Source: a virus
Length of the DNA stretch: 36,885 nt
Strand: one strand, 5' to 3'
IMG/VR virus record: IMGVR_UViG_3300048834_001343
Span: 1 to 36,885 of that record
The number at the start of each line of letters is the position of its first letter. The stretch's first letter is position 1. A model generated the notes under the pieces. That model was not told the origin of the DNA. It made no database searches and worked only from the letters and a program-made list of their open reading frames with translations. Positions 1 through 27,799 of this stretch are shown one piece after another. Position numbers and translations under genes: made by a program.

Positions 1-636
1 TTACACATTAAGCGTGTATTTCGCCTCTTCGCCCTTCAGTTGCTTGTAGGTAGCAACCAGGTTGTTGTGGTAGATATGGACGTTCCCTAAGAAGATAGTA
101 ATACTCTTCAATGGTACATCTATCTGCCTACTGATCAAATAAAGATGGTATATATCACTTGGAAGTCCTAGACTGGCATCACTACTGCGTTGGTAGGCGC
201 TTACCACCAGCTTACCGCTATCTATCTGGAATTGTATCAAGGATAGGCAGGGCTGTTGGTTCGTCTCTACGTTAGTTGCTCCCAAAAACAGCACATAGTT
301 CTTACTACTGCGCTTTTCGGCGTTAATCTTAGCAATTAGTGGTGGAAGCTTCTTAAAGTAGGTAGGATAGGAGTTAATGAGTATAGGGCCGCAATAATCC
401 CACCATGTAACACCTACTTGACGATATACTTCCGTTAGGCGTTCACCTGCCATGAACAAATCAAGCTCTTGCTTGAGCTTGATTCTGGGCATATTCCTAC
501 CCTCAAAAATGTTTAGCAGATCTGCTGGCGTAAGTTGTATCTTTTGGTTTAATAGATAACGATTGCCACCTTTAGCGTTGTTTTGATTCTTTCCTCTTTT
601 TAAAATTTTGGTAAGAATTTGTTCATATTTATTCAA
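1..636 (-). CDS. Thymidylate synthase-like protein, predicted dCMP-type (hydroxy)methyltransferase
   Basis: A 211-aa protein that aligns by eye with thymidylate synthase (TS) along most of its length. Residues 4-20 match the TS N-terminal helix; 57-63 (ELDLFMAG) and 74-80 (GVTWWD) match conserved core segments. Cys130 in 'QPC' is the catalytic Cys, QRSSD 149-153 the phosphate-binding segment, GLP 157-159 the next motif, and H187/Y189 the nucleotide-contacting pair. The residue after GLPx is Asp161 where TS has Asn (E. coli N177). Asp there is known from T4 dCMP hydroxymethylase and from TS mutants that take dCMP. Canonical TS is about 264 aa; this protein stops soon after the H-x-Y segment, so the C-terminal lid is missing, and the usual His after the catalytic Cys is Leu. 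It is the last gene of the tail operon, the position of mom in Mu. Its start overlaps the upstream gene by 8 nt. Fold assignment is firm; the reaction is inference. Confidence 0.75.
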   Translation of the reverse strand: MNKYEQILTKILKRGKNQNNAKGGNRYLLNQKIQLTPADLLNIFEGRNMPRIKLKQELDLFMAGERLTEVYRQVGVTWWDYCGPILINSYPTYFKKLPPLIAKINAEKRSSKNYVLFLGATNVETNQQPCLSLIQFQIDSGKLVVSAYQRSSDASLGLPSDIYHLYLISRQIDVPLKSITIFLGNVHIYHNNLVATYKQLKGEEAKYTLNV

Positions 637-1426
637 TTATGGCCGCATTTAAGTGTGCTACCCATTCTGTGCCGGCAATTGCTCCACCACCATCTATATC
701 ATACTTTTGGCTAGTCAAATAAAGCTCACAAGTTTCACCATCACACGAGAACTTAACAGATCTATTTACATACTCTCCTGTGTTGACTTTATAATCCCTA
801 ACAGTTACATATTGAGTGTGGAATTGATAAGGAAGCGCAAAACTTACCAAATTGTCTGTATTTGCATCTGGTTTATTAAACTTGGTTTCAATTTCTATAG
901 TATTGGTAACCAAGTTAACTTTGTATTTAACTGAAAAATCAGTTACTCCAATTCCCCCAATAGTAATATCTTCTGAGGCAACTTCTTGCCAGCCACTAAA
1001 CAAATCTTCTAAAACTGCGGAAGGTTTAATACTGCTCAATAAAACATTTACGCCAATTGCTGTCTCATTAAGTGCTCCAATTCGTTCAAAGAAAACAGTA
1101 CTTGCCGGATCTGCACTTTCTGCATAATCTTGCTGAGGGTAATCAGTAGCATTTACTTCGCTAAAGTTGACATAAAAGTCTGCCACAACTCCTGTAAACG
1201 TTCCCCCGGTTAAGTGGTACAATTTACCGGATTTTGCAATTACAGCATCCGTAATTACAAAACTTGTTTCACCTGCAGTAATTAAACCGCCATTAACAAA
1301 TACTGTAGAACTACCGCACAATTTGGCCAAAATGGTTTCTAATTGTTTAATAGATTCAGAAGTAAAATTCAAGTACTCTCTGGTGATTCTAAAACCCTCT
1401 TCAGTTATGTTAATTAGTGCTTTCAT
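629..1426 (-). CDS. Putative distal tail / receptor-binding protein
   Basis: 265 aa, rich in Thr, Val, Asn and beta-prone segments, with no catalytic motif, signal peptide or membrane helix. It lies directly after the baseplate gpI/gp48-like gene, where Mu carries its tail fibre genes (S/U), so a distal tail or adhesin role is the best guess. Residues 35-60 hold a Gly/Thr-rich strand region ('FVNGGLITAGETSFVITDA') of the kind common in phage fibre heads. The ATG shares its A with the stop of the upstream gene region (adjacent ends at 1426), suggesting coupled translation. I do not recognise a named family. Confidence 0.5.
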   Translation of the reverse strand: MKALINITEEGFRITREYLNFTSESIKQLETILAKLCGSSTVFVNGGLITAGETSFVITDAVIAKSGKLYHLTGGTFTGVVADFYVNFSEVNATDYPQQDYAESADPASTVFFERIGALNETAIGVNVLLSSIKPSAVLEDLFSGWQEVASEDITIGGIGVTDFSVKYKVNLVTNTIEIETKFNKPDANTDNLVSFALPYQFHTQYVTVRDYKVNTGEYVNRSVKFSCDGETCELYLTSQKYDIDGGGAIAGTEWVAHLNAAIIE

Positions 1427-3557: not shown

Positions 3558-4835
3558 TTATAACTTCATAGCCAAAACCCCATCGGTTCTAACATATAAT
3601 GTATTTGCAGCTACTCCGCCAACGCCTGCAGCAGTATCATCAGCATATTTGGTGGCACCAATATTGAATGGTATGATTGCAGCAGGTGCTGCATCTTTTA
3701 CCGGAATAATTTTAATTCCTTCATTTCCTTCAACAATTAACTGGTTGTTGTATTCATCTGCAGTATTTTCAACCTCGATAATAGCACGACTAATTTTGCC
3801 GGTCGTGTCGCTTTGTGCTTCAAACACTACTACAGCATCACCATGTTCGCTCACCGATTCTAATGCAGCAATTGCTAAACCAATTCCATCTGTGCTTTGG
3901 TTAACAGCCTGAATAACAGTTCTAGCTTCCCCATCGTTATTTCCTGAGTTAGTCGCTTTTACATTTATAATACATCCGGGGCTGGAAACAGTTTCAGTAT
4001 TACTTTCATTAATGGCTTCCAACAACAATTCTGCTTTTCCTTCTGCAGCAGCTGTTACTTTTGAAGCAATATTTACTTTTGCATTTAAAGTGTCTGAAAG
4101 TGATAGTAATTTAACCAAACTACTATTTTCAGAAGTTGGAGTATTAGAGCTGGTATTAACAGATTCTATATTAACAGCACTTTCCCCGCTAGAAGCTTCT
4201 GAAACAGTTGATCTAATTATTGTTTTAGCGCTCGAATTACCAGTGGTTTTACTCTCGTCTTTTATATAAATGACATAATCATCACCCAAATTGTCAAGAG
4301 AAATAGTGGCTCCTTCTAGTGAAGGCGACGTAGCTCTTGTTATAACTGCGGCAAGGGAGTTCTCTCCCATACCATAACCAGTAAGATCACCAACAACAAA
4401 AGCATTTAAAATGTCACTGTCGGTATCTTCTACATGAACAGCAAAAGCATTATTACCTTCACCTGCATAATCCGGAAACATTCCAAAGACACCATGATAT
4501 CCATCTACTTCAATATCATCATCAAAGGTAATATAAGTTGCACCATCGGCACCATCTGCGCCATCTGCGCCATCGGCACCATCGGCACCGGCAGCGCCGG
4601 TTGCACCATCAGCGCCTGCAGCTCCGGTTGGACCTGTGGGGCCTGCCGGTCCCTGTGGACCTTCAGGGCCTTCTGGTCCTTGCGGACCTGTTTCTCCTTG
4701 CGGTCCTGTATCTCCTTCCTCTACTGCCGCATCTGAGCGTCTTTTAGAATCTATTAAATCTGCGAATGCATCTTCATCGGGTTTTTGTCCATTTGCGAAG
4801 AGTGCTTTTAATTCTGCGTCGGTTTTTACTGCCAT
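3558..4835 (-). CDS. Collagen-like tail fibre / adhesin
   Basis: 425 aa. The N-terminal 40 residues ([20 protein letters not shown]) are the short attachment segment often found in phage collagen-like proteins. Residues about 42-101 are Gly-X-Y repeats: first GPQ/GPE/GPT units, then GADGAD units. A long beta-rich Ser/Asn/Thr domain follows (about 105-425), consistent with a trimeric fibre head. Collagen-like triple helices are known trimerising shafts in phage fibres. It lies between the LysM/gpX-like gene and the membrane-protein pair. The low-complexity repeat is a site where repeat number can change by slippage or recombination. This is the best candidate host-recognition protein in the window. 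Confidence 0.75.
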
Positions 4836-19892: not shown

Positions 19893-21151
19893 AAAATAAT
19901 ATTGCCGCTTTTTATGCTGATTACTTCGAAGCACACAGCTCTTGCTGTGGTGGTATAAACGCCGTTGAAGCTGTTGATTTAAGCGATTGGGAGAAAATCA
20001 TTAACAAGATTGCTAAACAGCTCTACGATGGCAAGATTAAGCCTACCGACTTAAATAAGGATTACATTACTAAAACTGCAGGGGAACTGAACAAAGCAGT
20101 TGACCTCGGTTTTGGGACATCTTACAAAGATGATAGCGATGTACAATTGGCAATGGCAATGAAGCGAAATGCCTGGTTGTTTTCAAGTGCCAAAAACATT
20201 CAGATTCAAACAGATATTAGCCAACTCATTACCGATGGTAAAGGCAATGTTCGACCGTTTGCAGCATTCAAAAAAGATGTTTTAAAAACCAATAAGGATT
20301 ATAACCAAACCTATCTACAGGCAGAATATCAAACCGCTTTAGCGAGTAGTCAATCGGCAGCCAAGTGGCAGGATATTCAGCGGCGAAAAGAACGGTACCC
20401 GAATTTGATTTACAAAACGGTTGGCGACAATAATGTGCGTGAGGCACATGTTGCTTTGGATGGTATTTGCAGGCCTGTTGATCATGATTTTTGGAAGTCG
20501 TTTTATCCGCCCAACGGATGGCGCTGCCGATGTTATGTGCAGCAAACTAACCGCCCAACCAATGGCGACACTGTACCAACGGTTGACGATAAGAATGTAC
20601 CGCCAATGTTCAGGGATAACTTGGCTTTGAAAGGCGATATACTTCCGGCAGGGCATCCGTATTTTAAGAATTTGGAGAAATCATTACCACAACGTGCCGT
20701 GATTACAGACGAAGTAATTAAGGAAGTGCCTTATGAGTTAGTATATAGTTTAGAAAATGGGAGTAGAATTTTAGTTCATCCTTTTACACATGATGGAGAT
20801 TTTAAAGTGAATATATTCACGGCATTAAGATTAGCAAAAGAAAAGAAAAGAGAGGTGAAATTAAGGCATCACTTAAATTCTGGAAAAAACCCAGAATTTG
20901 AAATTGATGGACTTATTGCTGATTTAAAAACTCCAAAGACAAAGGTAAATAATGTAATTGCTAAAGCCTTTGAGCAAGGTTGTAAATTTATAATTTTTGA
21001 AGCTGGGGATTATATATTTGAACGAAAAACTTTAGTTTCTCACATATATGGAAATTTTATTTCTCGATTGAAAAACAAATCAATGCCTAAGGATTTTAAG
21101 GGATTTGTTGTGCTTTACAGAACAGAGGAGAAAGAATATTTATGGAAATAA
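19883..21151 (+). CDS. MuF head morphogenesis protein with C-terminal nuclease-like toxin domain; reached by -1 frameshift from portal
   Basis: Open from 19871 with no ATG, GTG or TTG until TTG at 20147, yet the part before 20147 reads as genuine MuF N-terminus ('LSDWEKIINKIAKQLYDGKI', 'TAGELNKAVDLGFG'). So translation probably enters from the portal by a -1 shift, giving a fusion of about 840 aa. The MuF core is seen at about 20440-20545 ('NNVREAHVALDGICRP', 'FYPPNGWRCRCYVQQT'). From about 20720 a different domain follows: 'NPEFEIDGLIADLKTP' then 'VIAKAFEQGCKFIIFE', an E/D...DLK pattern like the nuclease domains at the C-termini of CDI toxins and MuF polymorphic toxins. This part is far more AT-rich (28% GC in 20761-20820 against 55% in 20521-20580). 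MuF core is firm; nuclease function and fusion are inference. Confidence 0.7.
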   Translation, partial: VPVKNNIAAFYADYFEAHSSCCGGINAVEAVDLSDWEKIINKIAKQLYDGKIKPTDLNKDYITKTAGELNKAVDLGFGTSYKDDSDVQLAMAMKRNAWLFSSAKNIQIQTDISQLITDGKGNVRPFAAFKKDVLKTNKDYNQTYLQAEYQTALASSQSAAKWQDIQRRKERYPNLIYKTVGDNNVREAHVALDGICRPVDHDFWKSFYPPNGWRCRCYVQQTNRPTNGDTVPTVDDKNVPPMFRDNLALKGDILPAGHPYFKNLEKSLPQRAVITDEVIKEVPYELVYSLENGSRILVHPFTHDGDFKVNIFTALRLAKEKKREVKLRHHLNSGKNPEFEIDGLIADLKTPKTKVNNVIAKAFEQGCKFIIFEAGDYIFERKTLVSHIYGNFISRLKNKSMPKDFKGFVVLYRTEEKEYLWK

Positions 21152-26308: not shown

Positions 26309-27799
26309 TTAAGCAGCATTTTCAATTTTAGATTTCAATTTGTGATTTCGGATACTTTCTAAATTAGGCTTCATTATAATTTTAGCCCAATCCGGAGGCA
26401 CTGCATTACCAATCATCTTAACAGCATTTTTCCCTGAAACCTTAAGTCCTGGCCTATTAAAATAATCTCGTGGGAAAGTGCTGCATCCAGCCAATTCATC
26501 CGGTCTAAGAAATCTAGCCTTAATATCAAATCCATCAAGAATAGTTATTAGCTGATGTTTAAATTCTGTCATTATAGGCGAAATCGGATCATCAATGGAT
26601 TCTATATTCCTCTCCGGAGTGCCATTTGAATTCATATACTTTGCAATGAATTGCATTTTTTCTAGTCTAATAAGTTGATGTCGATCTTTGCAGTTAATTC
26701 CATTTAATGGAGTATTTAAATCTTGAGCTTGCATTGTACCATAATATTGGCAGATTATATGGTCCAATGATATTAATTGCTTAGTTTGTCGGGCGAGTTG
26801 TGTTCTTAAAGGTTCTTCTGGCTTTTGGTAATTATTGGATCTACAGTAGTCCGCAATAAACTGCATTTTTTCCATCGTAACCAATTGATGCCTGTTGCAA
26901 GTGGTAATGGTATAAATTGGTTCGTCTATTGATTGAAATCTATTTGGATCGCCACCATAAAATTGAGCTACAAAATTTTTAAACGTAGGTGAATATTTTA
27001 CTGCTCCAAAACCTATTCTTCTTAGAGAATTTATTGATAGTTTTTTACGAAGATGTTTCGGTAATTGCTCGTTAAATTCTCTACCAAAAATGCTAACACC
27101 TTCATCTTCTAGATTTAAAAAACTTTTACAAGCAACCCATTTTTTCTTTCCATCTAATCCGCTTTTAGAATGGGTAAATGGTGGAAATTCAAATTGAATA
27201 TCCGGATGATAAAAAACACCAAAATATCTTTTGCGACGAGTTGGCATTCCATCGTCTGCAGCATTTCTTATTGACTCTTTATATTTATAACCCAAATCAA
27301 TAAATGCTTGCTTCCATCGCTCAAATTCTTCTCCTTGTCTACTTTTAATTCGCTTTCTATTTTCATCTAGAGGTGCCCATTTTTTAAATTCGGGAACGTT
27401 TTCAACAGTAAGCACTAAAGGCATTAGAAATTTGATATATCGATACAACTCCCAACCCATTGTATAAGAACCAATTCTTTTTTCTTCACCTGCTTTAGCT
27501 GTACTATGATCCTGACATTCTACGGAAGCGTGAATGCAATCAACATATTCAAGATCGTGCTCATCTTGGGCGTAAATATCTGCCCAATAAACTTTTGCTT
27601 CAGGATGATGAAATGCATTGGTGCTAATGGCTACTTTATCATGATTAAGAATCCATTTGGTTTTCATGCCCGGTACTTTATGAATACCGTGTGTCCAACC
27701 ACCGCCGCCGGCAAAGAATTCTCCACAACTAAGTACATCGCTTAATGGCAATTTTTGAACTGGAAAATTGATTTCCTTTTGAATTGTATTGTATCTCAT
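26309..27799 (-). CDS. DNA cytosine-C5 methyltransferase
   Basis: 496 aa. Motif I FAGGGGWTHGI (29-39); motif IV 'ASVECQDHSTAK' with the nucleophile C95; motif VI 'TVENVPEF' (131-138); motif VIII 'PTRRKRYFGVFY' near 175-190; motif X 'GNAVPPDWAKIIM' near the C-terminus. The Pro before the Cys (PCQ in typical enzymes) is Glu, as in phage-type members with an ExC motif. Between VIII and X are three related units containing 'SIDEPI/SIDDPI', 'EKMQFIA' and 'HQL' (about 270-430), a repeat array in or near the target-recognition region. Probably protects phage DNA from restriction. Solitary: no restriction enzyme gene is adjacent. Its leader, 26234-26308, follows the gene and has two copies of TTTTTTGGTGG. 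Confidence 0.9.
   Translation of the reverse strand: MRYNTIQKEINFPVQKLPLSDVLSCGEFFAGGGGWTHGIHKVPGMKTKWILNHDKVAISTNAFHHPEAKVYWADIYAQDEHDLEYVDCIHASVECQDHSTAKAGEEKRIGSYTMGWELYRYIKFLMPLVLTVENVPEFKKWAPLDENRKRIKSRQGEEFERWKQAFIDLGYKYKESIRNAADDGMPTRRKRYFGVFYHPDIQFEFPPFTHSKSGLDGKKKWVACKSFLNLEDEGVSIFGREFNEQLPKHLRKKLSINSLRRIGFGAVKYSPTFKNFVAQFYGGDPNRFQSIDEPIYTITTCNRHQLVTMEKMQFIADYCRSNNYQKPEEPLRTQLARQTKQLISLDHIICQYYGTMQAQDLNTPLNGINCKDRHQLIRLEKMQFIAKYMNSNGTPERNIESIDDPISPIMTEFKHQLITILDGFDIKARFLRPDELAGCSTFPRDYFNRPGLKVSGKNAVKMIGNAVPPDWAKIIMKPNLESIRNHKLKSKIENAA

Follow-up and report, generated by a model that had tools for sequence, protein, structure and literature searches.

The thymidylate synthase (TS) superfamily is already known, as is the meaning of an Asp at its specificity position. 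Asp at position 177 (Asn in E. coli TS) shifts substrate use towards dCMP, and the phage TS homologues on contigs with modified cytosine are marked by it; position 147 was the second residue that separated cytosine-modifying phage TS homologues in a metagenome association study (PMC8670742). An acidic residue (Asp or Glu) at the third position ahead of the catalytic Cys has been proposed as a signature of hydroxymethylation, and T4 dCMP hydroxymethylase is killed even by D145N (PMC6400193).

The phage records nearest to the protein studied here belong to Hankyphage p00 and its kin (about 67% identity), in which the gene is annotated simply as thymidylate synthase or ThyA. In the human gut, few Bacteroides phages are as widespread as the Hankyphages. 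In Hankyphage p00 (BK010646), the protein (DAC76694) is of the same family as ours, being 67.5% identical over all 211 residues, and its gene likewise lies close to the right end of the genome, in a Mu-like phage of Bacteroidota. The first-pass annotation had likened the location of our gene to that of Mu mom, and Hankyphage p00 is consistent with this: its genome closes with the TS gene followed by one for a D12 methyltransferase. Mu mom shares with our gene the right-end position in a transposable phage and a proposed role in DNA protection, but the protein and its chemistry are unrelated; Mom modifies adenine. Our protein has no homology to Mom and matched only PF00303 in Pfam, so that location alone is shared. 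The published Hankyphage descriptions that we examined make no mention of the TS-like gene. Hankyphage lysogens are inducible, and silencing of the phage repressor lifts virion yield almost 1000-fold (PMC12135933).

The stretch of DNA analysed here, called the window, comprises 36,885 nucleotides of one IMG/VR virus record (IMGVR_UViG_3300048834_001343). The TS-like gene occupies positions 1 to 636 on the minus strand and encodes 211 amino acids, with the stop codon at 1-3 and a TTG start at 634-636 that aligns with the ATG of relatives (conserved MNKYH). The gene directly upstream in the operon (629 to 1426, minus strand; 265 aa) has no Pfam family and is not a methyltransferase. It shares 8 bases (629-636) with the TS-like gene, so that translation of the two genes may be coupled.

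Fold, active site and C-terminus of the TS-like protein

The product had been read at first pass as a TS homologue, and both profile searches and structure prediction agreed. The protein matched PF00303 (E 1.4e-17; 64.2 bits against a cut-off of 24.3, Pfam) and PHROG 160, 'thymidylate synthase' (E 3e-25). Its AF2 model, built with 25 aligned relatives, had a mean pLDDT of 81.8 and a pTM of 0.80, with low confidence at residues 82-89 (pLDDT under 50), in a few other loops and at the protein end. The best PDB matches of the model were TS structures (VIA-align Z 18.9, 201 of 211 residues, rmsd 2.7), and the matches listed in a PDB fold search were all TS chains, a listing that speaks neither for nor against a resemblance to dCMP hydroxymethylase. 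In profile-profile comparison with HHalign, the family matched canonical TS with E 6.6e-18 over 201 columns and T4-type dCMP hydroxymethylase with E 2.5e-7 over 69 columns, which makes canonical TS the nearer of the two. The NCBIfam TS equivalog cut-off was missed by the window protein (53 versus 327 bits). An archaeal-type short TS was considered and set aside; the corresponding NCBIfam model is similar in length and, in a comparison of models only, matched more weakly than the bacterial TS models (38.5 versus 53 bits).

All of the residues that the earlier reading had listed as kept are present, namely C130, Q149-R150-S151-S152-D153, G157-L158-P159 and H187-x-Y189. On the minus strand, the codons lie at 466-468 (E57), 400-402 (W79), 301-303 (K112), 256-258 (Q127), 247-249 (C130, TGC), 187-189 (R150), 178-180 (D153), 154-156 (D161, GAT), 76-78 (H187) and 70-72 (Y189). 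The equivalents of the TS superfamily catalytic set (Cys, Glu58, Arg166, Ser167, Asp169, His207 and Tyr209) were invariant in 151 sequences. The proposed change from Asn to Asp at the specificity position proved sound, since D161 fell on E. coli N177 (D179 in T4 dCMP hydroxymethylase) in three alignments, made with phmmer to the PDB, MAFFT and profile-profile HHalign. At position 147, the family has Leu, not His.

Canonical ThyA shares with the window protein the fold, the nearest profile and the PC, QRS and GLP motifs. The two differ in that N177 is replaced by Asp and H147 by Leu, about 40 C-terminal residues are gone, the loops are shorter, and the phosphate-clamp pair contributed by the second subunit (E. 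coli R126 and R127) is replaced by S111-K112 according to both MAFFT and HHalign. T4 gp42 and its phage relatives have in common with the family the Asp at the specificity position, the lack of H147 and the active-site Cys, Glu, Arg, Ser, Asp, His and Tyr. However, the T4-type enzymes carry MRS and GxR where the window family has QRS and a TS-like GLP together with PC, and Arg-Arg where it has Ser-Lys. Three positions ahead of the Cys, they have either Asp or Glu (T4 Asp145; D145 was invariant in six dCMP hydroxymethylase-like sequences), whereas Gln127 was invariant there in the 151 sequences and in 47 further relatives. In addition, the profile match to the T4 type was weak and covered 69 columns only, and the T4-type pathway genes were not found in the gene sets described below. 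N88-S89-Y90 is near-invariant; its register against T4 Ser94-x-Tyr96 is uncertain, as MAFFT places L86 on Y94 and pLDDT is under 50 at 82-89. MilA CMP hydroxymethylase resembles the family in its Asp at the specificity position and in a phosphate-clamp Lys (K133 in MilA, K112 here), but the MilA Lys replaces R126 while K112 falls on R127, MilA has Ala where the family has invariant S151 (the equivalent of Ser167), and MilA carries an extra C-terminal helical domain (PMC5175136). As judged from these residues, the window protein is not a T4-type dCMP hydroxymethylase. Since the hydroxymethylation signature fails, a product other than 5-hydroxymethyl-dCMP is possible. The family likely descends from a TS that switched to cytosine independently.

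The C-terminus had been described as lacking about 50 residues, for which a partner might be needed. This did not hold: the shortfall against E. coli TS is about 40 residues, and all 151 relatives end at FxLNV or at most 2 aa further, indicating that the window protein is an intact short form. T4 dCMP hydroxymethylase is likewise without the TS tail and is functional and folate-binding regardless (PMC6400193), and the window protein ends near the same place as T4 gp42. The gp42 of Aeromonas phage 25 (225 codons including the stop) also lacks the tail. Known dCMP hydroxymethylases thus do without it, and no partner is required to account for the length of the protein.

Conservation of the family and its methyltransferase neighbour

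Relatives were collected from viral contigs with patterns taken from the window (the best 80 of 141) and with profile patterns (the best 80 of 279), and from bacterial genomes (the best 80 of 253); nearly all of their hosts were Bacteroidota. E57, W79, C130, Q149, R150, S151, D153, G157, D161, H187 and Y189 were invariant in the 151 non-redundant sequences. Because one of the genome-scan patterns included the D161 residue, this position was rechecked on independently found relatives, namely the viral loci obtained with patterns lacking D161 and 47 relatives found only via the neighbouring methyltransferase. Asp was present in 151/151 sequences of the non-redundant alignment and in 47/47 of the methyltransferase-found set, whose key catalytic residues were equally unvaried at the positions checked, and a selection artefact was thereby ruled out. 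The median dN/dS was 0.035 (65 pairs of family members). Together with the invariant catalytic residues, this indicates a working enzyme and not a decayed TS, and the identical end point across the family and the low dN/dS likewise rule out a truncated pseudogene. Among 395 Bacteroidota genomes, scores dropped from about 390 bits (family) to under 57 bits (canonical TS), and no intermediates were seen; by sequence score, the family stands isolated.

The neighbour of the TS-like gene is usually a DNA amino-methyltransferase. We counted 120 of 150 non-redundant loci, in which either a partner was visible or the flanks on both sides were long enough to exclude one. A methyltransferase adjoined the gene in 93 of these (48 upstream and 45 downstream), a linkage of 78% that is slightly too high, since a short flank on one side did not remove a locus from the count if its partner was in view; in the other 27, about a fifth, no adjacent methyltransferase was present. 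A single D12 family accounted for most of the neighbours, other D12 families for some, and the N6_N4 class for one. The order of the two genes has switched at least 10 times on the tree, and the commonest spacings were overlaps of 4 or 8 bases. When the search was reversed and started from the methyltransferase with TS ignored, a TS-like gene lay alongside in 68/80 viral loci, whereas 7 methyltransferase loci with full flanks had none. These results point to a strong family-wide link to DNA modification, and the partnerless loci on both sides show that the TS relative and the methyltransferase do not strictly need each other. Identity among the methyltransferases falls to about 36%, whereas the TS relatives hold 66-75%. 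Such a difference would be expected from a methyltransferase whose target site shifts, paired with a TS relative whose small-molecule substrate stays the same.

The window's own downstream methyltransferase, if present, is not visible, as the contig ends at the TS-like stop codon, unlike Hankyphage p00, which continues into the D12 gene. Just one other contig shares this end and it breaks off at the identical base, and no phage record close to the window exists that would supply the downstream side. Many IMG/VR viral contigs (for example L014-L016, L018 and L021) end, like the window, exactly at the stop codon of the TS-like gene or the methyltransferase; such ends are a trimming effect of prophage callers, which hides the right end of the phage.

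In many relatives, the gene directly 5' of the TS-like gene encodes a small HTH protein that weakly matches the Mor activator (for example L082:40709-40951), and an 82-aa family, assumed to be the same as the Hankyphage HTH protein, lies upstream in 15/67 genome loci. By analogy with C, Mor and Com in Mu, this protein may act on the cassette as a late activator. A link to the diversity-generating retroelement, which lies just upstream in Hankyphage, was dropped because this element occurs in only part of the loci. At two loci (L026:6212-7819 and L119:8314-9867), the TS-like gene adjoins an SPP1-type portal gene, and the family may therefore also be present in phages that are not Mu-like. One Flavobacterium chromosome (CP051546) carries three separate TS-like copies, each with a methyltransferase (L099, L112 and L146), as expected for several transposable prophages. 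A broken copy in two overlapping frames, on contig C1 of genome G010 (89733-90366), is probably part of a decayed prophage.

Possible roles of the enzyme

To determine whether the hosts depend on the phage gene for TS, 18 host genomes were sampled; all 18 contained a canonical full-length ThyA besides the TS-like gene, which rules out a substitute for a missing host TS. Pfam searches of the window, in which many genes have no family match, revealed no nucleotide kinase, dCTPase, DNA polymerase or glycosyltransferase, and there was no kinase or glycosyltransferase among ten Hankyphage genes checked. A C5-cytosine DNA methyltransferase is encoded at 26309-27799 (minus strand; PF00145, E 9e-28), in the early region and apart from the TS-like gene. 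Its presence argues against complete replacement of cytosine, since such an enzyme would be pointless if every C5 were already substituted.

The reading that we prefer, to which we give an even chance of being right, is that of an active phage-specific C5 one-carbon transferase of the TS superfamily, which acts on a cytosine nucleotide and belongs to an anti-restriction cassette at the right end. The enzyme would pass a one-carbon unit from methylene-tetrahydrofolate to C5 of the nucleotide, most likely dCMP, and the product would most likely be 5-hydroxymethyl-dCMP or another 5-substituted dCMP, not dTMP. Its gene would belong to a cassette at the right end, probably expressed late, in which a DNA amino-methyltransferase gene is usually present as well. 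The phage DNA would be altered against restriction, with the methyltransferase marking adenines and the TS relative marking cytosines through the nucleotide pool. This reading builds on directly observed features, namely the fold, the invariant catalytic residues and Asp, the loss of the tail, purifying selection, the host ThyA and the methyltransferase linkage of the family. We infer cytosine specificity from known N177D chemistry; the chemistry, timing, entry into DNA and anti-restriction purpose are also inferences. This reading is weakened in that the hydroxymethylation signature fails, the phosphate clamp is altered, and a kinase, dCTPase or sugar transferase went undetected in the genes searched. 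The right-end position also tells against it: late expression is more usual there, whereas T4 makes its dCMP hydroxymethylase early. The first-pass suggestion that the phage alters a cytosine nucleotide, or modifies its DNA in a way not described for Mu-like phages, is favoured by the TS fold, the invariant Asp, the right-end location and the family-wide methyltransferase link, whereas Gln127 and Ser-Lys speak against a plain T4-like form of it.

Other roles have to be weighed against this one. The enzyme could act on a cytosine nucleotide and leave DNA unmodified, altering the nucleotide or folate pool against superinfecting phages or host replication, for example by removing dCMP or by making a toxic or signalling nucleotide. 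The genes searched yielded no kinase or dCTPase through which a modified dCMP could reach DNA, such phages replicate with the host replisome, and the far greater conservation of the TS relative than of the methyltransferase is as for a small-molecule enzyme; the persistent neighbour, however, is a DNA-modifying enzyme and points to DNA, and we consider this role unlikely. More broadly, the TS-fold folate enzyme and the DNA amino-methyltransferase could form a post-replicative DNA modification module of Mu-like Bacteroidota phages, with cytosine changed either within the DNA or by way of an as yet unknown product, which seems to us rather improbable. The narrower proposal of a folate-dependent enzyme that works with the neighbouring methyltransferase on cytosine within DNA is favoured by the changed phosphate clamp (S111-K112 for Arg-Arg), a methyltransferase adjoining in either order and a right-end position like that of Mu mom, which acts after replication. 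Against it, H187 and Y189, which hold the free 3'-OH of a mononucleotide, are always kept along with R150 and S151, a DNA-binding extension is absent and, to our knowledge, no member of the TS superfamily acts on a polynucleotide; we regard it as very unlikely.

The Hankyphage records annotate an ordinary thymidylate synthase, which would supply dTMP in lytic growth, and the profile is indeed closer to canonical TS than to the T4 type. This is highly improbable in view of the invariant Asp at the dUMP-selecting position, the Leu for H147, the ThyA in every sampled host, the NCBIfam equivalog cut-off missed so widely and the absence of the C-terminal tail that is needed for hydride transfer (PMC6400193). 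It would be equally surprising if the protein had a TS fold and no enzymatic role, as a subunit or regulator of the methyltransferase or as a part of the virion or baseplate: every catalytic residue is invariant, and each of the two genes also occurs without the other. The tight methyltransferase linkage would suit such a role, and T4 TS was reportedly once found in the baseplate.

If the preferred reading, a cytosine-directed C5 one-carbon transferase, is true, Hankyphages, along with hundreds of phages related to them, produce a modified cytosine that nobody has looked for, by means of an enzyme that keeps TS motifs and has an active site unlike that of T4. The linked methyltransferase provides a clear hypothesis, the paired protection of adenine and cytosine. 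We found no description of this clade, its tail loss, the Gln signature or the methyltransferase pairing in the open-licence literature, and no report there of a phage TS homologue linked to an adjacent adenine methyltransferase; prior mention elsewhere is possible.

Other genes of the window

A Mu F-like head protein is encoded at 20147-21151 (plus strand), and its C-terminal part matches PF18451 (CdiA_C, a contact-dependent inhibition domain); by these matches, the product is a MuF protein with a fused toxin-like domain. The gene at 3558-4835 (minus strand) encodes a tail-fibre-like protein with a collagen-type Gly-x-y stretch (PF01391).
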